From positions 1-59,486 of IMG/VR virus record IMGVR_UViG_3300044765_000192: 59,486 nucleotides of DNA. The stretch is one strand, 5' to 3'. The translations under genes were made by a program, and so were the position numbers. This DNA is from a virus. The notes under the pieces are model-generated. The model searched no databases, was not told the DNA's origin, and saw nothing but the letters and a program-made list of their open reading frames with translations. This document shows positions 617 to 59,486 of this stretch, in pieces; the stretch's first letter is position 1, and the number at the start of each line of letters is the position of its first letter.

Positions 617-3600
617 TCAATATGATCTAATGCCCATACCAACACGTATGTTTTGCGCAAGCGGCATCCCCAGCGTCTGAATAAGCGTCTGACTGTCGAG
701 ATACACTGTCAAATTAATGGAGTGTGCCATATTCCCGCCACCTGCACCGCCAAGCAAAATAGGCGTAACTGTCTCGCCAGTTCCCTGTGCAAGCATGCGC
801 GGTGTAGAGTAGCCTGAGATATCTTGCATCGGATAAACGGATGCCCCCGGCGGCAGATTCACAAAGGACGGCTGGTCAAAGAGCATGTATTGGCCATTGT
901 GCTCTACAACCTCGGCTCCTGCTTCACCCACGACCGCCGCGCCGCCTGAGTAATTCGAGACGCCCTCTGCAAACGCCGGAACACCTCCTCCGCCTCCAAG
1001 TACCCAGCTCGCCTCGGCAAAGAAGGTATGCTGTAGGTTTTGCCCCTCCCATTGTGCAATACCTTCAAAAAGATGCTCGGTATTTTTCTCTGCCCACGAT
1101 GCTACTGCTGTGGCCGCATGGACCAAATTACGCTCGGCCCATTCGGCTGCCGCCGTGACCGGATGAACAAGGTTTTGCTCGGCCCATTGCGCGACCGCCG
1201 TTGCCAAGTGGACAAGATTTTGCTCAGCCCATTGTGCTACAGCGGTCGCCATGTGGATCAGGTTCTCTTCGGCCCATTGCGCCGCCGCTACGGCATTGTG
1301 AATCAGGTTGTGTTCGGCCCATTCGGCTGCCGCAACAGCTGCATGGACAAGGTTGTGTTCGGCCCACTCTGCCGCTGCTACCGCCGCATGGACCAGATTG
1401 TGTTCGGCCCATTCGGCTGCCGCAACAGCTGCATGGACAAGGTTGTGTTCGGCCCACTCTGCCGCTGCTACCGCCGCATGGACCAGATTGTGTTCGGCCC
1501 ATTGCGCGGCTGCCGTGAATGATTTCGTTAGGTTCTCTGCCTGCCAGTCCACTTTGGCAGTAAATGTGTGGGATAGTTCGACTTGCTGAGTGCCCACACC
1601 GCTGTTTGTTAGTGAGCCACCAAAACCGGCAGTTGATAGATGACTAACATCGCGACTTGCAATAGCTTCTGTTTGCGCATTGCCACCAAAAAGACCACCT
1701 AACCAGTTGCCGATACCATTAAATGTTTGCCCAATCCCCCCACCTGTTATGTCCCAGAGGAACTTTCCAGCGCTGCCAAGGCCGCCCATAGCACCACCAA
1801 GGAGCTGGCTGGCCCATCCTTCCCCCGGTCCTGTCTGTCCATAGTCTGCCGCCGGTGCGAATGGGGTCAAATAACTGAGAGCATCTCTTATCCCGCCAAA
1901 GACGCTTCCAGCAGAGACAGGCTGACCCTGATTAAATAGGCCACCTAAAATATTCCCTGCAGTAAGATTCCAGAGTCCTTGGATAGGTCCACCTTGACCA
2001 AAAAGATCACCGCCAAGATTGGCAAAAAAGCCATTTGCACCAAACCAGTTTCCTTGCTGCATGGCTTGCTGCATGGCATTGCCATAGGTGTTATGTGTTA
2101 CGGCGTATTGTTCATTTTGCAAATCATTTGCTGCATTTGCCTGTAACAATTCTTGTTGGTAGTTATAAGGGTGTGCAGCTTCGTATCGCTGCATTTGTGT
2201 TTGCGCAAATTGTTGGGCATACGCCTGTTGCGCGTTTGACACTAAATTATTTTGATTGACTGCTTCGATTAGTGTTTTTGTTGCGCTTACTTGTGCGTTT
2301 GCCGCGTCAGATATGACCTGCGTTGGTATGGAAGAAAGGCCCTTTTGCACTTCAGCCTGTATTTCCATCTGTGGCGTTGCCTGCTGGCCGGTAATAACAG
2401 GTCCTACCCCCGTCCACTCTCCGATATTGTTGGCAATTCCTGCCATTCCAGCAAACATCATTTGCAGACCGATAGGAGCGCCGATGCCAGTTAAAGTGAG
2501 AAGACCCCCGAGACCGCCTAAAAGCAAATTGCTGCCAAACGAAAGCGCCCCTCCAAGCAGGCCGCCCGTGAAACTTTCTGGTCCTGTATTGCCGAGTGCA
2601 GCGTTAATGCCATCAATGGTCGCAGTAAACTGCTGTCCAAATGCCTCAGAGAATGCTCCACCGGCTTTTTGTGCGGTCACACCTAAACTGTCAACGGATT
2701 CGGTAAATGTGCCCATGCTGTGCGCAGCAGGTCCTTCAGCAATAGCGGCGCTATTATAGATGGCCGTTCCTAGCTGTGTTGCCATCTGTGCGCCCATTTG
2801 TAGGTACATCAGCGGTCGCATAAAGCTATCGAAGCCCATTACCAGATCGCTAAAGCCGCCAAATATCCCTTTGCTTTCAATTCCGGCACTATCTACCCCA
2901 CCAAAAATCTGAGTGCCCAAGCTATTGAAAAAGCCGCCAAAGAAGCCCTCGCCGTTCTTGCTTGCCTCTTCAGATGCGATACCTATTTCATCTATGGATT
3001 TGCTTGTATCTGCTATCGATGACCCTAAATCAGTGATAGTTTCACTTGTGCTTTTTGCTTCATCTCCCATGCCCACAAAAGAGTTGCCGATGTCTTGCGA
3101 CTGCTGACTCATCTGCTCATGGATGTCTGACCAACTTTTGCCGATGGATTCCGTGAAACTATTCATGTCCTGGCCGGTTTCCCGAAAATACTCCTGGAGC
3201 ATCAGCATCGGCTGAGGGGTTGTCGCCAAATCCTGAAATACCGCCATATTCTCGGCGATTTGATCAAAGGCAGGTCCAACTGCTTGTAGACTGCCCTCAA
3301 CCACATCAGGCAGCATCAACTGTTCCGGGACCTGGGCAAGTTGAGAGGTGGCATTCATCAATTCTTGCACATGCTCGATGTAGCCCGGTGGCAGCAACGG
3401 CTGTGCAAACATATCTTGCAGCGCCGCAAAATTATCGCCGACATTGCCAACTTGCTCAGAGAGTGACTGCGCATGTTCTGTGAGCAGGGCCATCGGCGCA
3501 GGCGCACTTTGCAACATCGGAACGACCGTGCCAAGAGGCTCTTGCAGCGCTTTGTATGCATCGGCGGTATCCTCAATGGCGGCACGATGCTCTACCAGCG

Positions 3601-3865
3601 CATCGTTAAGCTCAGTAATGACCGTCTCACCAGCAGTAAATGGCTCAGCCATCTCATTTACCGCGCCAGTAAACGGGGTGAGCGCTTTTTGCCCCTCAAT
3701 CAAGTTCCCTTGCAATTCGCCCAGCGCGTCATTAAGCTCGCCAACCCCTGAACCGGCACCTTGACCTAACCCTTGCAGGGATTCCAGGTCCTTCTTTGCT
3801 TGTTCTAATCCTGACCCATCGTATTCTACCGTTACTTTGGCTTTCACCTCTCCCGCATCTGCCAT
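617..3865 (-). CDS. Tape measure protein
   Basis: 1082 residues, preceded by a near-perfect Shine-Dalgarno (AAGGAGGTGA). The protein spans the tail lumen and sets tail length. Support: it sits directly after the frameshifted chaperone pair, it is the longest gene of the head-tail block, it has coiled-coil and Gly/Ala-rich membrane-like stretches, and its C-terminus has a GGAAVVGEAGAEVV...LPPGASVYP block typical of tape measures. About residues 790-970 form 12 tandem 15-residue units of the type W-A-E-x-N-L-x-H-x-A-x-A-x-A-x, with a 45-bp DNA period and nearly identical central copies. By the usual 0.15 nm per residue rule a tail near 160 nm would be expected (inference). Several antisense open frames over the repeat are shadows. 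Confidence 0.95.
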   Translation of the reverse strand: MADAGEVKAKVTVEYDGSGLEQAKKDLESLQGLGQGAGSGVGELNDALGELQGNLIEGQKALTPFTGAVNEMAEPFTAGETVITELNDALVEHRAAIEDTADAYKALQEPLGTVVPMLQSAPAPMALLTEHAQSLSEQVGNVGDNFAALQDMFAQPLLPPGYIEHVQELMNATSQLAQVPEQLMLPDVVEGSLQAVGPAFDQIAENMAVFQDLATTPQPMLMLQEYFRETGQDMNSFTESIGKSWSDIHEQMSQQSQDIGNSFVGMGDEAKSTSETITDLGSSIADTSKSIDEIGIASEEASKNGEGFFGGFFNSLGTQIFGGVDSAGIESKGIFGGFSDLVMGFDSFMRPLMYLQMGAQMATQLGTAIYNSAAIAEGPAAHSMGTFTESVDSLGVTAQKAGGAFSEAFGQQFTATIDGINAALGNTGPESFTGGLLGGALSFGSNLLLGGLGGLLTLTGIGAPIGLQMMFAGMAGIANNIGEWTGVGPVITGQQATPQMEIQAEVQKGLSSIPTQVISDAANAQVSATKTLIEAVNQNNLVSNAQQAYAQQFAQTQMQRYEAAHPYNYQQELLQANAANDLQNEQYAVTHNTYGNAMQQAMQQGNWFGANGFFANLGGDLFGQGGPIQGLWNLTAGNILGGLFNQGQPVSAGSVFGGIRDALSYLTPFAPAADYGQTGPGEGWASQLLGGAMGGLGSAGKFLWDITGGGIGQTFNGIGNWLGGLFGGNAQTEAIASRDVSHLSTAGFGGSLTNSGVGTQQVELSHTFTAKVDWQAENLTKSFTAAAQWAEHNLVHAAVAAAEWAEHNLVHAAVAAAEWAEHNLVHAAVAAAEWAEHNLVHAAVAAAEWAEHNLIHNAVAAAQWAEENLIHMATAVAQWAEQNLVHLATAVAQWAEQNLVHPVTAAAEWAERNLVHAATAVASWAEKNTEHLFEGIAQWEGQNLQHTFFAEASWVLGGGGGVPAFAEGVSNYSGGAAVVGEAGAEVVEHNGQYMLFDQPSFVNLPPGASVYPMQDISGYSTPRMLAQGTGETVTPILLGGAGGGNMAHSINLTVYLDSQTLIQTLGMPLAQNIRVGMGIRSY
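1090..1560 (-). repeat. Tandem 45-bp coding repeats in the tape measure gene
   Basis: About 12 in-phase 45-bp units encode WAExNLxHxAxAxAx. The central four are almost identical, partly as perfect 90-bp blocks, while outer units have diverged. This suggests recent expansion by unequal recombination or slippage. The regular Trp/His spacing suggests a helical repeat. It is not a CRISPR: there are no variable spacers and the reading frame is kept. Confidence 0.9.
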
Positions 3866-18879: not shown

Positions 18880-19056
18880 GGTAACGATGGTAACGCGGTA
18901 ACGCTGACACTGCGGAGTGGCTCTACAGGCTGGTTTAGCGCCGTTACCATGCTTTTCACTCCAAGGTAACGCTTGCACAGTGCGGTAACGAACCCCTGCA
19001 AGGGTGTTACGCTCGTTCTCACTATTACCTCCGTTACCTTACTATGCAAACGTTAC
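18880..19056 (-). repeat. GGTAACG-rich repeat, copy A
   Basis: Multiple GGTAACG / CGTTACC heptamers in both directions. 18937-18990 is a perfect 54-bp inverted match to 31558-31611 (copy B). A shares its layout with copy C inside the helicase gene. It includes an ACCCCTGCAAGGG palindrome variant. No gene. Confidence 0.85.
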
Positions 19057-24658: not shown

Positions 24659-24927
24659 GGAGGTCAGGAACCCCACGCCTGAAGGGCGGGGGCTTGTGAG
24701 GAGCCGCAAGGTCTTTTCATCAGCCCACCTGACCAGACTCAGCCTGGAAACAGGCTACGTTAGGAGCGAAATAGGTATGTTGGGGTGCGAGGCCAGCCCC
24801 AACCTCTACGGGAACAGGTTAAACAGGTCTACAAGGGTTAAGCCAGTGCTTGTGACGCCAAACCGCTCCATAACATTGTCGAGGCCAACATTACCTGGGA
24901 AACCAGAGCGTCTGAAAGGACAAACTC
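24643..24927 (+). ncRNA. IscB omega RNA (guide plus scaffold)
   Basis: Region upstream of iscB with strong stems: ACCCCACGCC-TGAA-GGGCGGGGG (about 24670-24693), AGCCTGG-AAA-CAGGCT (about 24738), GTTGGGGT...AGCCCCAAC (about 24780-24803) and further pairings up to the start codon. In IscB systems the scaffold lies immediately 5' of the gene and the about 16-nt guide forms its 5' end. Exact 5' boundary is inferred. Confidence 0.75.
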
Positions 24928-26290
24928 TTGAGTCATGTTTTTGTCGTTGATACTCACAAACAACCGCTTGGTCCGGTTCATCCAGCCCGAGCAAGAAAGT
25001 TGCTTGATCAAAGGAAAGCGGCTGTCTATCGTAGATATCCATTTACGATCATCTTGAAGGTTGCCATTGACAATCCCGTGGCAGCCGATCTCAGGCTCAA
25101 GCTTGATCCAGGCTCAAAAACCACAGGGATAGCTGTGGTTTTTGATCAATCAGGAGAAGTGGTTTTTGCCGCCGAACTTTCCCACCGTGGGCACAAGATC
25201 AAAGAAAGTTTGGATGGCAGACGGGCCATCAGGAGATCGAGAAGGAACCGTCAAACGCGCTATAGGAAGGCTCGTTGGCACAACAGAAGAAGGAAAGAGG
25301 GATGGTTGCCTCCTTCACTTGAGAGTCGCATGACCAACATCCTCACCTGGGTGAAGAGACTCTCAAAGTTCTGCACGATCACGAGCATCAGCTTAGAGCT
25401 GGTCAGGTTCGATATGCAACTGATGGAAAATCCTGAAATATCGGGAGTCGAGTATCAGCAAGGAACACTTGCAGGATACGAAACCCGTGAGTACTTGCTG
25501 CAGAAGTGGGGACGAAAATGCACCTATTGTGGCAAGGAAAATCTTCCTCTCCAGATCGAGCATATCGTCCCACGTGCCAAAGGTGGTTCAAATCGCGTCT
25601 CGAACCTGTGTCTCTCGTGTGAGAAATGCAATCTTGCCAAAGGGACCAAGAGCATAGAGGAGTTTCTCAAGAAAAAGCCCGATCTCTTGAAGCGCATTCT
25701 GGCCCAGGCAAAGGCCCCACTCAAGGATGCTGCTGCTGTCAACACCACCAGATGGGAATTGTACAGACGATTGCAAACGTTGGGATGGCCTGTTGAATGT
25801 GGCTCAGGCGGGGTCACCAAATACAACCGAAGTCTGAGGGAACTTCCCAAGACGCATTGGTTAGATGCTGCATGTGTGGGCCAATCCACTCCCGAGACAC
25901 TTCAAATCAGGGGTGTGCAACCCCTCTTGATCACAGCCAATGGTCACGGGTGTCGTCAAATGTGCCGCATGAACCAGTACGGTTTCCCGCGTACAGGACC
26001 CAAAGCAGCCAAGTTCGTCAAAGGCTTCCAGACGGGGGATATGGTTAAGGCTCTCGTCACAAACGGAAAGAAGGTGGGAACGTATGCAGGACGAGTAGCA
26101 GTTCGTGCTACTGGCTCATTCAACATCACGACGGCAAAAGAAACCGTACAGGGAATTAGTTTCAAATATTGTCAGGTCATTCATCGCATGGATGGCTATA
26201 GTTACGGGCACGGGGACCCATCCCCTGCCCCAAACAAGGAACGCCTCTTTCCTCCCCATGCGTCAACGCAGGGGTCTCCAGAGGCGGAGG
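24659..26290 (+). mobile_element. IscB element (IS200/IS605-superfamily, no transposase)
   Basis: Left part begins with the omega RNA scaffold; right end carries a subterminal hairpin 26254-26274 (CCCC-A-TGCGT-CA-ACGCA-GGGG, with one bulged A), the type recognised by TnpA transposases. No tnpA gene is present, so movement would need a transposase in trans. Boundaries approximate. Confidence 0.7.
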
Positions 26291-26505
26291 TTTTGATGGA
26301 TGCAAAAAAATCATCATGTCCTTTCTGTCCAGATGGACACGAGCACCCCTGTACACATCCATGGGCGGTTTATATTGGCCCCCAACGAGATGGTGATGGA
26401 CAACCTACCCACCTTATCGTTTGTAAAACGGGACTGCAACACATGGCTGAGAGCGATGCTGAATGGTTGAGACAATTGATACGGAATGCAAGAAAGGAGC
26501 AATAA
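24928..26505 (+). CDS. iscB: IscB RNA-guided nuclease, with C-terminal fusion
   Basis: 525 residues from TTG 24928 (GAAAGGA upstream). PLMP domain (FVVDTHKQPLGPVHPARARK, residues 5-24), RuvC-I KLDPGSKTTGIAV with D60, Arg-rich bridge helix (98-122), RuvC-II SLELVRFD with E157, HNH with CTYC (199-202), IEHI H212 and CEKC (231-234), RuvC-III HWLDAACV with D313, and the C-terminal target-interaction domain ending at HRMDGYSYG (about 427). All catalytic residues are present, so it should cut double-stranded DNA guided by the omega RNA. Residues 457-525 (MDAKKSSCPFC...) appear to be a separate phage gene joined in frame downstream of the element. Confidence 0.93.
   Translation: MSHVFVVDTHKQPLGPVHPARARKLLDQRKAAVYRRYPFTIILKVAIDNPVAADLRLKLDPGSKTTGIAVVFDQSGEVVFAAELSHRGHKIKESLDGRRAIRRSRRNRQTRYRKARWHNRRRKEGWLPPSLESRMTNILTWVKRLSKFCTITSISLELVRFDMQLMENPEISGVEYQQGTLAGYETREYLLQKWGRKCTYCGKENLPLQIEHIVPRAKGGSNRVSNLCLSCEKCNLAKGTKSIEEFLKKKPDLLKRILAQAKAPLKDAAAVNTTRWELYRRLQTLGWPVECGSGGVTKYNRSLRELPKTHWLDAACVGQSTPETLQIRGVQPLLITANGHGCRQMCRMNQYGFPRTGPKAAKFVKGFQTGDMVKALVTNGKKVGTYAGRVAVRATGSFNITTAKETVQGISFKYCQVIHRMDGYSYGHGDPSPAPNKERLFPPHASTQGSPEAEVLMDAKKSSCPFCPDGHEHPCTHPWAVYIGPQRDGDGQPTHLIVCKTGLQHMAESDAEWLRQLIRNARKEQ
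26254..26274 (+). repeat. Right-end hairpin of the IscB element
   Basis: CCCC A TGCGT CA ACGCA GGGG: nine pairs with one bulged A and a 2-base loop, inside the C-terminal coding part of iscB. Matches the imperfect subterminal hairpins of IS200/IS605 ends. Confidence 0.7.
26296..26505 (+). CDS. Small Cys/His protein, read as fusion to IscB
   Basis: 69 residues if started at ATG 26296. Motif CPFCPDGHEHPCTHPW is a possible zinc site, then VYIGPQRDGDGQPTHLIVCKTGLQHMAESDAEWLRQLI. It overlaps the next gene region by operon spacing of 3 bp and probably existed before the IscB insertion; whether it is made alone or only as fusion is open. Confidence 0.55.
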   Translation: MDAKKSSCPFCPDGHEHPCTHPWAVYIGPQRDGDGQPTHLIVCKTGLQHMAESDAEWLRQLIRNARKEQ

Positions 26506-29904: not shown

Positions 29905-31023
29905 TTACAAATCATTCAGCTCATCCAAAACAGACGGCGCGCCGTGCCTAGCCTCACTCTGCAAAATGCTTCTCAGGTACGTTTCTGTGGTGGCAACACA
30001 AGTATGCCGAAGCAGCATACTTAACGTCTTGATGTCTTTCGTCTTTCGCCAGAACCGCACGGCAAAGGTATGACGAAATGTGTGCGGGCTACACCGCACT
30101 CCTTCGATGCCTGCCCAGCGCCCCAGGCGTTTCACAATCTGGTACAAGCCAGAAGGTGTCAGTGGCTGAGCATAGCGGCTCACAAAGAGTGGCGCATTCT
30201 TTATTGCCTGCTGTTCTGCCTGCTTCTGTTGTCGCGCTGGCAACTTCTGATGTAGCTGCTTCAAGGCATATTCAACAGTTGGCTCGCGAAACTGGCGAAT
30301 ATATTTAGAGATCGCCCGCCGGGCCTGATCGCCGATGCCAACCTCACCATATTTGCCGCCCTTACCTTCAATCTTAATATATGAATCTTTCGCGTCTAGG
30401 CACACATCGCCGATGGAAGACCTAACTAGTTCCTCTTCGCGAATACCACTATCTAAGAGCAATGATAAAATAGCTCTATCGCGTATCTGAAGATGTTCAC
30501 TTTCCTCCTGTTTGCATGCCTCAAACAAGGCTTCAATCTGCTCGTCAGAGAATATTTCAATGATCTCCTGCTGAATTTTTGGCTTCTTGATACGCTGAAT
30601 CGTGATAGCCTGAACCTGCTGACAATACTCATCGTCGAGTAGGCACCAATTGAGGAAAGCTTTGATGCACTTTACATATGTGGCCAACGTCCAGCTAGCC
30701 AGTTCCTCTCGTTCTGCCCGACTCGGCTTGTGTGTCTCCTTGAGATGTTCTAGGAAGCAATACACGACCTGGTCGTTGATCTCATGTAGAGCAATGCCTG
30801 CGTCAGATTCAATTGCTTCCCAGGACCTATCTCTATTCTGGACGAGTGCATGTCTGCTACACCACTCTGCAAAGACGCCAAGAAAATGACGGTAGTTGGA
30901 CTGCGTCGCCTTACGCAGGCGCTTAAACGTGGTGGTCGCCAGATAGTCGGCAAGCGCTTCTTGCACCGGAACCGCAGGCGGCTCGTCTCGCTTCTTAACA
31001 GCGCGAATATTCTTCTTTGGCAT
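29905..31023 (-). CDS. int: Tyrosine recombinase (integrase)
   Basis: 372 residues from ATG 31023 (AAAGGGAAC upstream). N-terminal SAM-like core-binding domain (VQEALADYLATTTFKRLRKATQSNY...). Catalytic domain with Arg in LLDSGIREEELV, Lys in GKGGKYGEV, H-x-x-R in SPHTFRHTFA, His in LRHTCVATTETYL and Tyr at the end of that motif. It integrates at the tRNA-Arg-derived sequence directly upstream of the gene. Confidence 0.93.
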   Translation of the reverse strand: MPKKNIRAVKKRDEPPAVPVQEALADYLATTTFKRLRKATQSNYRHFLGVFAEWCSRHALVQNRDRSWEAIESDAGIALHEINDQVVYCFLEHLKETHKPSRAEREELASWTLATYVKCIKAFLNWCLLDDEYCQQVQAITIQRIKKPKIQQEIIEIFSDEQIEALFEACKQEESEHLQIRDRAILSLLLDSGIREEELVRSSIGDVCLDAKDSYIKIEGKGGKYGEVGIGDQARRAISKYIRQFREPTVEYALKQLHQKLPARQQKQAEQQAIKNAPLFVSRYAQPLTPSGLYQIVKRLGRWAGIEGVRCSPHTFRHTFAVRFWRKTKDIKTLSMLLRHTCVATTETYLRSILQSEARHGAPSVLDELNDL

Positions 31024-31106
31024 GTTCCCTTTCATACTCCCTTGCAAGGGAGTGTCTCTCTTTCCTGAAATGCCGATAAACCAAGGCTGCAAGCCGATTG
31101 GCTAAC

Positions 31107-31160
31107 GCGCTTCCCTGCGGAGGAAGAAGTCGGAGGTTCGAATCCTCTCAGCAACGCCCA
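31107..31160 (+). tRNA. tRNA-Arg(GCG) 3' half: attachment core
   Basis: GCGCTTCC, loop CTGCGGA (anticodon GCG), GGAAG, AAGTC, T-arm GGAGG-TTCGAAT-CCTCT, acceptor CAGCAAC, G, CCCA. The sequence 5' of it does not pair with the acceptor, so only the 3' half is present, as expected for attP or attR of a tRNA-targeting integrase. It lies just behind the int start. Confidence 0.8.
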
Positions 31161-31163
31161 TAA

Positions 31164-31206
31164 TAAAAACGACTCTGCGGTGCATATCGTGCCGTAGAGC
31201 CGTTTT
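31164..31206. terminator. Bidirectional terminator-like hairpin in the attachment region
   Basis: AAAAACG-A-CTCTGCGG, loop, CCGTAGAG-C-CGTTTTT. A-tract and T-tract on both sides. It follows the tRNA 3' half as a tRNA terminator would. Confidence 0.7.
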
Positions 31207-31265
31207 TCATTTTCAGACAGAGGAAGTGCTCCGTCTCTGAAGGGAACCGCTCTCACGTCCAAAAA

Positions 31266-31296
31266 GGAAGCGCTCTATCCACTGAGCTACAGCAAC
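31266..31296 (-). tRNA. tRNA-Arg 5' half in inverted orientation
   Basis: Minus strand GTTGCTG-TA-GCTC-AGTGGATA-GAGC-G-CTTCC: acceptor, D-arm and 5' anticodon stem. It pairs perfectly with the acceptor and anticodon stem of the 3' half at 31107-31160 (GTTGCTG/CAGCAAC; CTTCC/GGAAG). After CTTCC it continues TTTTTGGACG, which is not tRNA. Together the halves make a canonical 73-nt tRNA-Arg, but they point in opposite directions. Confidence 0.75.
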
Positions 31297-31478
31297 TTGT
31301 TGATCTCTTCGACGCCAATAGGATAGCAGATTACAGGGCGGCGGCGCCAGTGTTCAGAGGCAAAATTCTCTTGCAAGGGGTGCCTGAAGCAGAATCTTAA
31401 TAATTTTTTAACTGCCTGGCAAGGGTGAAAGGTAGTACTTTTAGGCGGTACTATTCAAATTAACATTTGCATTTTTAG

Positions 31479-31683
31479 GTAACGCTCGTAACAGGGGTAA
31501 CATCAGTAACGGGGGTAATGACGGTAACACCCTGAGTTTGCTGCGTATGGGTGTCAGCGTTACCGCACTGTGCAAGCGTTACCTTGGAGTGAAAAGCATG
31601 GTAACGGCGCTTAGTCCAGGTGCAGAGCCGATTGAGCAGGCTAGCGTTACCGCGTTACCACCGTTACCCCACTGTGCAGGTAA
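31479..31683 (+). repeat. GGTAACG-rich repeat, copy B
   Basis: At least nine GTAACG/CGTTAC motifs. 31558-31611 is identical to copy A (inverted). The order of CGTTACC boxes around AAAGCATGGTAACGG is also seen, diverged, in the helicase gene (copy C). Non-coding here. Confidence 0.85.
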
Positions 31684-37728: not shown

Positions 37729-39684
37729 ATGCTAAATGGTCATTATAATGGCGAAGTCCGCAACTATTTATTGCAACTTCAAACCGGACGTAAACCGGAC
37801 GTCTGCCCGGACATTCCCGAGTACTGGCGAAGTCCAGTGGAGCAGGCTGAGTCCGTCTATTTGCGCTCAGGCGGCGACGGCGAGGCAGTGAAACGGCTGC
37901 TGAGCACGCTTTGCAAAATCAACACCGATCTCACCGAACTGCTGGCAACAGAGCGCCCGTCTACCCCTGCAAGGGTGGATGAGGCACCAGATGCAGCAGG
38001 CACAGAATTACAGGAAGCTCTGTCCCAGAAGGACAGGGGCAAGGTCTTCGAGCGCATTTCCGAAATCGCCATGTTCGACGACATCACGCTAGCGCGGTTT
38101 AAAGTGGCGCTGCGTAATATCTTTGGCTCCACCTTCCCCATGCGCGAGTTCCTTGATCTGCTTCGAGCGGAAAAGCGACGGATAGCGGAACAAAACAGAG
38201 CACGTCCTGTTATCAAATCCGCCTATGATCTCATGCAAAAGCAGTTCCCTGAGAAGGAATGGATTGTCCCCGGTATCCTGCCTCCGGGCCTGATTGCATT
38301 GGCTGGAAAGCAAAAGATCGGCAAGAGTTGGCTGGACTATAATCTCTGTCTCGCCATTGGCGGAGGCGGAATGGCCTTTGGCTCTATCCCTGTTCAAGCT
38401 GGCGATGTCCTCTATATGGCCCTGGAAGACAACGAGCAGCGACTACAGGACCGCTTCAAGCAACTCTTAGAGCCTGGGCAAGTTATGCCCAGTTGCATTG
38501 ATTATGTGACCGAGTGGCCCCGCATGGACGCCACCGGAGTAGCAGTTCTCGAAGAATGGATACAATCTAAGCCCAATCCCAGACTCATCATTATAGACCC
38601 GTGGGTGAAGGTAAAACCCAGAGTCAAGGCCCGGCAAGGGGAAACCGGCTATGATGCCGATTATGAAGCCTTGGAAGGCATCAAACGGCTGGCTGACACC
38701 TACAAGGTCTGCATTCTCGTCCAGTTCCATTTGAGAAAGGCAGGTGGTGAGGACCCGTTTGACGAGCTGAACGGCACAAGCGGGATAACCGCCTGCGCTG
38801 ATGGGTTTCTGAGTCTGAAGCGGTCGCGTGGTGAATCTGACGCGACACTCTGGGGGACAGGCCGGGATTATCGGGAAGACGTAGACCTGGCGTTAAAATT
38901 TGACAATGGGTATTGGAATGTGTTGGGTGACGCGAAGGAGTACGCCCTCTCCAAAGCCAGCAAGGAGATTATCGACATTCTTAACCAGGCAAGCAGTCCT
39001 GTATTACCGAAAGAGCTGGCCGCTCTTTTAGAGAAGCCGGAAGGGACAGTGCGGAAGCGGTTGTTTGACATGAAGAATCGAGGGGATGTCAAAGACACTG
39101 GCAAAGGGTATATTTCTTTGTTGCCACAAGGCAAAAGTACTATCGAAAAAGAGACAACACTTGCACAGTGCGGTAACGGCGGTAACGGGGTAACGCGGGG
39201 CTCTATCAAGCAAGGCGTAGAGCCAGCCGAACCGCGTTACCCCAATGATGAACAAGGCGTAACGCTTGCATGGCGGGGTAACGCTGTGAGCGCGAGCGTT
39301 ACCCCGCCATGCAAGCGTTACCCTGACAGCGAAAGTATGGTAACGGCCATCAGGCCAGGTGTGGAGCCGCACGAACAGCCTGCCGTTACCCCGTTACCTC
39401 CGTTACCGCAGTATGCAAATGATAATTTAGTGCACCAGGAAGCACTAGTACTTTTGTCAGAGGTGCAAGAATTGTTCAAAGCGCGTAACGGGATTCGCCA
39501 GATGTGGCGCGATGACCTTAATCCGATACGCCAGTTTTTACCAGGGGACTACATTAAGAAGGTGCAAGCGGCTATTGAGTCTGGAGACACTCAAAGCATC
39601 CAGGCAGCCATCACTGCGATGAAGTGGACGACCGGAAAACTTAGACCTGGTAGAGACAAAGAAGCATCACCCTTGCAAGGGTGA
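37729..39684 (+). CDS. RepA-like AAA (RecA-fold) helicase
   Basis: 651 residues from ATG 37729 (AGGA upstream). RecA-like core with Walker A LAGKQKIGKSW (about 190-200), ALEDNEQRLQDRFKQLL, Walker B-type RLIIIDPWVKV and the VQFHLRKAGGEDPFDELNGTSGITACADGFLSLKR block typical of RepA/AAA_25 proteins. A winged-helix-like segment follows (LLEKPEGTVRKRLFDMKNRGDV). Residues about 480-565 are a GNGGNGVTR...VTPLPPLPQ linker encoded by repeat copy C. C-terminal helical domain, stop within the palindrome (PLQG). Confidence 0.82.
   Translation: MLNGHYNGEVRNYLLQLQTGRKPDVCPDIPEYWRSPVEQAESVYLRSGGDGEAVKRLLSTLCKINTDLTELLATERPSTPARVDEAPDAAGTELQEALSQKDRGKVFERISEIAMFDDITLARFKVALRNIFGSTFPMREFLDLLRAEKRRIAEQNRARPVIKSAYDLMQKQFPEKEWIVPGILPPGLIALAGKQKIGKSWLDYNLCLAIGGGGMAFGSIPVQAGDVLYMALEDNEQRLQDRFKQLLEPGQVMPSCIDYVTEWPRMDATGVAVLEEWIQSKPNPRLIIIDPWVKVKPRVKARQGETGYDADYEALEGIKRLADTYKVCILVQFHLRKAGGEDPFDELNGTSGITACADGFLSLKRSRGESDATLWGTGRDYREDVDLALKFDNGYWNVLGDAKEYALSKASKEIIDILNQASSPVLPKELAALLEKPEGTVRKRLFDMKNRGDVKDTGKGYISLLPQGKSTIEKETTLAQCGNGGNGVTRGSIKQGVEPAEPRYPNDEQGVTLAWRGNAVSASVTPPCKRYPDSESMVTAIRPGVEPHEQPAVTPLPPLPQYANDNLVHQEALVLLSEVQELFKARNGIRQMWRDDLNPIRQFLPGDYIKKVQAAIESGDTQSIQAAITAMKWTTGKLRPGRDKEASPLQG
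39164..39417 (+). repeat. GGTAACG-rich repeat, copy C, translated in the helicase gene
   Basis: Same box order as copies A and B (GTAACG boxes, ATGCAAGCGTTACC, ATGGTAACGG, then three CGTTACC boxes), kept open in the helicase frame as a low-complexity linker. Confidence 0.85.
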
Positions 39685-59133: not shown

Positions 59134-59486
59134 CTAGCAAGGGTACCAGAGACTGGTCGTTGAATTATAGAAAAAGGTTTGTGCGTTATTCGCCGCAATA
59201 ACACAGCTCGTGCCGTTAGCTACGTGAGAAGTCGCACTTGTGGCCATAGTTATACTAAAGCTGCTAGCATTCACGACTACGCAAAACTGCCCCCCATAGC
59301 CAGGTTGCATGATAATGCCGGTCACGTTCGCCGTTGGGGCAACCACAATATCTGACAGTCCCTGAGCGTTAATGGTGCCGTTGGACGCCAGAGAATTGGC
59401 TGTTGTTGAAGCCGTAAAGTAAAAGCCTGCTGCGGTATTTATTCCTCCAGTCATGAAGAGATTGCCATGATTGTCCACCTGAAAAA
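59134..59486 (-). CDS. C-terminal part of a tail protein (open at right edge)
   Basis: About 117 residues visible, starting FQVDNHGNLFMTGGINTAAG, then a small beta domain (DIVVAPTANVTGIIMQPGYGGQFCVVVNASSF...) ending TTSLWYPC. FQVDNxGN repeats are common after the beta-helix of spike proteins. Its frame matches the spike gene at 1-598 if base 59486 is followed by base 1. Confidence 0.7.
   Translation of the reverse strand, partial: FQVDNHGNLFMTGGINTAAGFYFTASTTANSLASNGTINAQGLSDIVVAPTANVTGIIMQPGYGGQFCVVVNASSFSITMATSATSHVANGTSCVIAANNAQTFFYNSTTSLWYPC

Follow-up and report, generated by a model that had tools for sequence, protein, structure and literature searches.

Why should a phage attachment site carry both halves of the tRNA gene it targets, pointing toward each other? 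The usual rule for integration into tRNA genes is that the element supplies the 3' half, while the host retains the 5' half together with the promoter. We analysed the IMG/VR virus record IMGVR_UViG_3300044765_000192 over all of its 59,486 bases (the window), whose genes include those for capsid, portal, terminase and tail proteins. Next to its tyrosine integrase gene (int) lie the 3' half of a tRNA-Arg(GCG) gene and, on the opposite strand, a 5' half of the same gene. An earlier note made from the sequence alone had placed a phage attachment site (attP) at 31107-31296, which the layout and the integrated relatives described below bear out, and had considered an inversion by the integrase, two integration histories, a split tRNA and an amplification chimera as explanations. 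We find that the composite attP is real and that it characterizes a single clade of tyrosine integrases, found in phages and integrative islands of Ktedonobacteria.

The attP core (31107..31126, plus strand) reads as the anticodon stem GCGCTTCC (31107-31114), the loop CTGCGGA and the stretch GGAAG of tRNA-Arg(GCG). The 3' half extends from the anticodon loop to the discriminator (31115..31156, plus strand), with the loop at 31115-31121, GCG at 31117-31119, the acceptor strand CAGCAAC at 31149-31155 and the discriminator G at 31156. On the minus strand, GTTGCTGTAGCTCAGTGGATAGAGCGCTTCC (31296-31266) is an exact copy of nucleotides 1-31 of the same tRNA and ends at the border between the anticodon stem and loop. 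The two halves, both read directly from the sequence, face each other as the earlier note had stated, with a gap that we correct from ~105 bp to ~110 nucleotides. Past the tRNA 3' end lies a terminator hairpin (31165..31204) with T-runs on both strands, the reverse one read directly; the bidirectionality claimed for it holds in the window but not as a general feature, the terminator being one-directional in three relatives. The following P'-side segment (31205..31265) contains imperfect ~22-bp repeats, GGAAGTGCTCCGTCTC and GGAACCGCTCTCAC, with similar repeats in the relatives; judged from their sequence, they are candidate arm-type sites of the integrase.

ARAGORN called neither half in place in the window, and Rfam gave a single tRNA match of 34.7 bits, at 31086-31153. 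When the halves were joined, ARAGORN reported a tRNA-Arg(gcg) and RNAfold a full cloverleaf of -26.9 kcal/mol, confirming that both come from one tRNA-Arg(GCG), which is perfect in its joined form. The joined tRNA is 97% identical over nucleotides 5-75 to a real tRNA-Arg of Ktedonobacteria (L161), and two further tRNA-Arg genes from the class are 91% identical over their full length with the same GTTGCTG/CAGCAAC acceptor. The matching tRNAs are typical of Chloroflexota, with Ktedonobacteria nearest, and together with the kinship of the integrase they indicate Ktedonobacteria (Chloroflexota) as the probable host. No complete tRNA of the same isotype was called in the window, where a tRNA-Met was the sole tRNA called. 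The integrase of 372 amino acids (29905..31023, minus strand) matches the Pfam family Phage_integrase and contains the catalytic R..H-x-x-R..H..Y signature (R195, H314, R317, H340 and Y349); its start codon, 83 bp from the site of the tRNA halves, adjoins the attachment site.

Integrases 51-57% identical to that of the window are encoded in four of 47 Ktedonobacteria genomes (G083, G075, G076 and G094), and among 400 sampled Chloroflexota genomes this integrase type, at E-values below 1e-60, was confined to the same four. All four contain integrated elements with a displaced tRNA 3' half at the int-proximal end, an intact tRNA gene at the far end and a core of 41-46 bp common to both ends, which is the ordinary outcome of integration. 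The target is tRNA-Arg(CCG) in G083, G075 and G076 and tRNA-Thr(TGT) in G094. In each case the host tRNA is intact and uninterrupted, the 3' half of the element being joined to the 5' half of the host. The restored genes use the original promoter of the host, to which the inverted promoter-like element described below is additional. As judged from these relatives rather than from a lysogen of its own, the 3' half of the window would be expected to restore the host gene in the same manner. All four integrated elements also contain an exact inverted copy of the first 30-35 nucleotides of the tRNA in the flank on the element side, 103-145 bp past the gene. Since the 3' half of the element restores the host tRNA in the normal way, the inverted half amounts to an extra unit that is conserved.

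With the window integrase alone as the query, no relative was found among the viral contigs. An alignment seeded with the four genomic homologs yielded four more phages, L258 (Gly-TCC), L259 and L261 (both Arg-CCG), and L260 (Arg-TCT), each with a 3' half beside int that faces a 5' half. Independently of the integrase, we scanned 2.9 million viral contigs for a T-arm followed at 90-120 nucleotides by a reversed D-arm. The scan gave two matches. One was the contig of L259; the other, a further phage detected by its DNA pattern alone (L266, Arg-CCG), encodes an integrase of the same kind (50% identical). Thus all ten elements with a window-type integrase, four integrated and six unintegrated phages, carry a 3' half by int, beyond which, at a distance of 79-146 nucleotides, the 5' half of the same tRNA follows in inverted orientation. 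They span five tRNAs (Arg-GCG, Arg-CCG, Arg-TCT, Thr-TGT and Gly-TCC), with six at Arg-CCG and four at the others. When the 2.58 Mb of retrieved DNA was scanned for halves that face each other and share the same 7-nucleotide acceptor, these elements were recovered along with one background hit with one mismatch, which argues that the arrangement is not due to chance. A DNA search among named phages gave no match, nor did an exact scan of the viral contigs for the Arg-GCG core give any hit. In the three nearest relatives, G001, G002 and G004, the available sequence does not reach the attachment region, and no strain-level relative spans the site. In G004, a 19-nucleotide exact match to window positions 31259-31277, the edge of the inverted 5' half, lies in an unrelated regulatory region (L155:633-651).

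Three more distant integrases that use the same tRNA region served as controls: G076b and G082 (both Arg-CCT) and the viral G037 (tRNA-Phe). The inverted 5' half is absent from all three, in agreement with the earlier statement that a normal attP has only the 3' half. The counterexample named in the earlier note, a related phage whose normal attP lacks the 5' half, did not turn up among the close relatives, all of which carry it; the normal attP is confined to distant integrases. The elements with the layout, all ten of them, fall on one side of a branch with 100/99 support in a maximum-likelihood tree, apart from the three outgroup integrases. The flank on the int side of G037 (L148:1200-1500) resembles a complete tRNA-Phe whose acceptor is mismatched, and it looks like a pseudo-5' half in direct orientation. 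The window and L258 carry virion genes (capsid, portal and terminase in the window), G083 carries FtsK/SpoIIIE, transposase and sensor kinase genes, and G075 a type I restriction-modification set; by gene content, some relatives look like islands rather than prophages. As the cargo varies and the layout is constant, the layout goes with the integrase. The FtsK/SpoIIIE protein near int in the G083 island (L223:4311-5957; G083:C9:1392000-1411999) suggests a conjugative element in Ktedonobacteria in the style of the integrative and conjugative elements of actinomycetes.

What precedes the inverted 5' half is also shared. In the window, an extended -10 promoter element, TGCTATCCT (31320..31328, minus strand), is located 23 nucleotides ahead of the inverted half. 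Its direction, across attP to the integrase gene, is shared by a second sigma70-like site, TTGCCA-17-TAAGAT (31394..31422, minus strand). The extended -10 motif TGNTANNNT occurs within 40 nucleotides ahead of the inverted half in nine of the ten elements (expected 0.56, p = 5e-11) and is always directed across attP to int. Between the core and int, it is present in one of ten segments, those of L261 and L266 being covered only in part. Generic sigma70 scoring of the leaders gave a weaker signal in the same direction (combined p = 1.3e-4). Identity to the host extends over 23 nucleotides of the leader in G076, stopping upstream of the -10, and over 1-3 nucleotides in the other three integrated elements. 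The promoter-like element is thus kept but is not a plain copy of the host sequence.

Pairing between the acceptor arms of the two halves is perfect in nine elements, and the arms vary with the tRNA type (GTTGCTG/CAGCAAC, GTTCCCG/CGGGAAC, GCCGGTG/CACCGGC, GCGGGAG/CTCCCGC and GCGCCCA/TGGGCGC). The exception, L261, also lacks the extended -10. The joined tRNA of L258 agrees with a real tRNA-Gly of Ktedonobacteria at 71 of 72 positions; at the remaining one, the phage copy has G8 in place of U8. Hence two of the six unintegrated phages have decayed inverted copies (L261 in the acceptor, L258 at U8), and the copies in all four integrated elements match the host gene exactly. In most elements the similarity of the inverted copy to the tRNA ends at nucleotides 30-32, and in the others within or just past the anticodon loop. 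The loop, which forms the overlap of the recombinase, is the same at the inverted half and the core only in L259. It is replaced or deleted at the inverted half in the window (TTTTTGG versus CTGCGGA in the core), G083, G075, G076 and L266.

We tentatively favor a composite explanation, to which we give somewhat less than even credence: an origin by self-inversion, a tRNA-derived int promoter active only in the unintegrated state, and a tRNA part refreshed from the host. For the origin, the integrase would have brought about recombination between attP and a complete, inverted copy of the tRNA gene carried by the same molecule. Such a self-inversion would leave the promoter and 5' half opposite the 3' half, delivering both halves together with the break at the crossover point. 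The inverted copies end where the tyrosine recombinase crosses over, which fits this origin, and an inversion made by the integrase appears the likeliest source of the inverted half. Of the inversion proposed in the earlier note, the part that survives is thus a plausible origin, with the break at nucleotides 30-35 or in the anticodon loop; a flipped state was seen in none of the ten elements. Two integration histories, also proposed, are not needed as an explanation. Once in place, the tRNA-type promoter would read across the unintegrated attP into int, and integration would sever the promoter from int, making a self-limiting switch. Within a lysogen, the copy of the element and that of the host would form an inverted repeat ~100-145 bp apart, through which templated repair could homogenize the tRNA part. 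The exact copies in the four integrated elements, the decay in two free phages and the leader tract in G076 fit such refreshing.

Several points weigh against this composite explanation. In the window, the hairpin has a T-run in the direction from the promoter to int and could block read-through, and an int promoter needs no 31 exact tRNA nucleotides. Templated repair across a loop of 100-145 nucleotides is something we infer, and an int promoter that lacks an extended -10 may lie between the core and int. The loss of both the extended -10 and the acceptor pairing in L261 would also fit a function linked to the tRNA.

It is possible, but on balance doubtful, that the unit is a relic of an ancestral self-inversion by the integrase, has no present function and keeps its match by copying the host 5' half during each lysogeny. 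The breakpoint in the crossover region, the contrast between exact integrated copies (4/4) and decayed free ones (2/6), and the 23 nucleotides that G076 shares with its host would all be expected of such a leftover. A relic would hardly be kept in ten of ten elements across five tRNA specificities and integrases down to ~50% identity, even after specificity changed within the close group of L259, L260 and L261, nor would the promoter element persist in those integrated elements, three of the four, whose leader is unlike that of the host.

We consider it unlikely that the facing pieces are kept deliberately as a switchable copy of the target tRNA, which the integrase would assemble by inversion or alternative integration. 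Flipping the segment of 3' half, terminator and spacer would, with exact geometry, give an intact tRNA gene borne by the element and driven by its own promoter, and the acceptor arms co-vary across the five tRNA types. DNA lying between tRNA attachment sites in inverted orientation can be flipped by tyrosine integrases (PMC5495485), and lysogeny can depend on phage tRNAs (PMC10865867). If this were true, tRNA function, element orientation and int expression would be coupled through a single recombinase. However, all ten elements are in the same orientation, and matching inverted overlaps exist only in L259, those of the window and the others being different. The changes in L258 and L261 should spoil the tRNA, and a pattern scan of the viral contigs detected no intact Arg-CCG tRNA core.

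Less probable again is a role of the inverted half as a second integrase-binding region or back-up attachment site, either an extra core or arm-type site shaping the recombination complex or a place for insertion in reverse orientation with the tRNA left intact. The inverted half is a core half-site adjoining repeats that resemble it, and the copies of G075, L258 and L266 retain both stem arms around the changed loop, but the right arm is gone in the window, G083 and G076. In each of the four integrated elements, integration took place at the normal core, and the exact acceptor stem and the promoter-like element would be left unexplained.

A split tRNA, with the halves transcribed separately and joined as RNA, is very improbable: its sole support is that the halves are separate and able to pair, no promoter for the 3' half was identified in attP, the gene is contiguous after integration in all four cases, and two 5' halves carry damaging mutations. 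Bacteria are not known to have the bulge-helix-bulge splicing route of archaea. An inverted chimera from genome amplification or assembly, typical of which such facing halves would look, is refuted by ten independent instances with their own tRNA copies and different flanks, four of them in bacterial assemblies of different species.

The composite site resembles the canonical anticodon-loop attP (PMC8371274; for mycobacteriophages, PMC10865867) in its crossover at the anticodon loop, its 41-46 bp core reaching to the tRNA 3' end and the restoration of the host gene with its own promoter, which restored bacterial tRNA genes nearly always keep (reviewed in PMC8371274). The canonical site usually carries only the 3' half, whereas here an inverted promoter-like element and 5' half of the same tRNA follow past the P' side. 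Phages with tRNA-dependent lysogeny also carry a promoter-linked sequence of the target tRNA, but there a core of ~10 bp leads to destruction of the host tRNA and its replacement by a complete phage tRNA (Guerrero-Bustamante and Hatfull, 2024, PMC10865867). We reject this system for the present elements, as the four integrated relatives rebuild the host gene, the extra piece is a 5' half only, and a complete tRNA of that isotype is missing from the window. In int modules of the KplE1/HK620 type (PMC2951348), int likewise starts beside the attachment site and its control region overlaps it; there the int promoter is on the int side of the core, whereas the sole clade-wide promoter-like element here is on the far side, behind the 5' half. 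The integrase of pTN3 (PMC5495485) acts on inverted tRNA attachment sites, as proposed above for the origin, but in archaea and between separate chromosomal tRNA genes, not within an attP. A displaced tRNA-Thr 5' fragment beside a mobile (recombinase) element is known from Caldiarchaeum (PMC3293823), though as a single archaeal locus 1.8 kb upstream of an intron-bearing tRNA, with no mention of inverted orientation. In the open-access literature we found no precedent for inverted 5' halves or for both tRNA halves at an attP, and the design is apparently undescribed.

A whole integrase clade, in phages and non-phage islands with five tRNA targets, thus brings a promoter-like element and matching 5' half backwards in addition to the 3' half. 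This bears on how integrases gain a new tRNA target, for the two halves change in concert, consistent with an entire gene being captured and then rearranged by self-inversion. It also bears on how int is switched off after integration. For uncultured phages, the facing halves name the target tRNA outright and offer a signature for both attP and target.

Further features accompany the site in the window. The P-side segment between the integrase start and the core (31024..31106) contains the palindrome CCCTTGCAAGGG at 31039-31050, as do most relatives. The palindrome CCTTGCAAGG occurs at 15 sites from 3892 to 58405 (e.g., 31040-31049), against 0.07 expected, with several copies directly ahead of minus-strand genes. 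It is also found in related phages and islands, mostly in the interval between the attP core and int, and is a candidate repressor operator or stoperator. Repeats rich in GGTAACG, in both orientations and up to 89% alike, lie at 18880-18990, 31558-31668 and 39158-39421 and are present in the relatives too, and tandem repeats of 45 bp occupy 1044-1561 within the open reading frame 617-3865. The phage also carries an RNA-guided nuclease unit of the IscB type, with a HEARO RNA (24663-24894) followed by an RRXRR/HNH protein (24928-26505). Finally, the relative G004 (L156:3690-4300) links window positions 59486 and 1 through ~610 additional bases, so the window is a near-complete, circularly permuted genome with a short gap.
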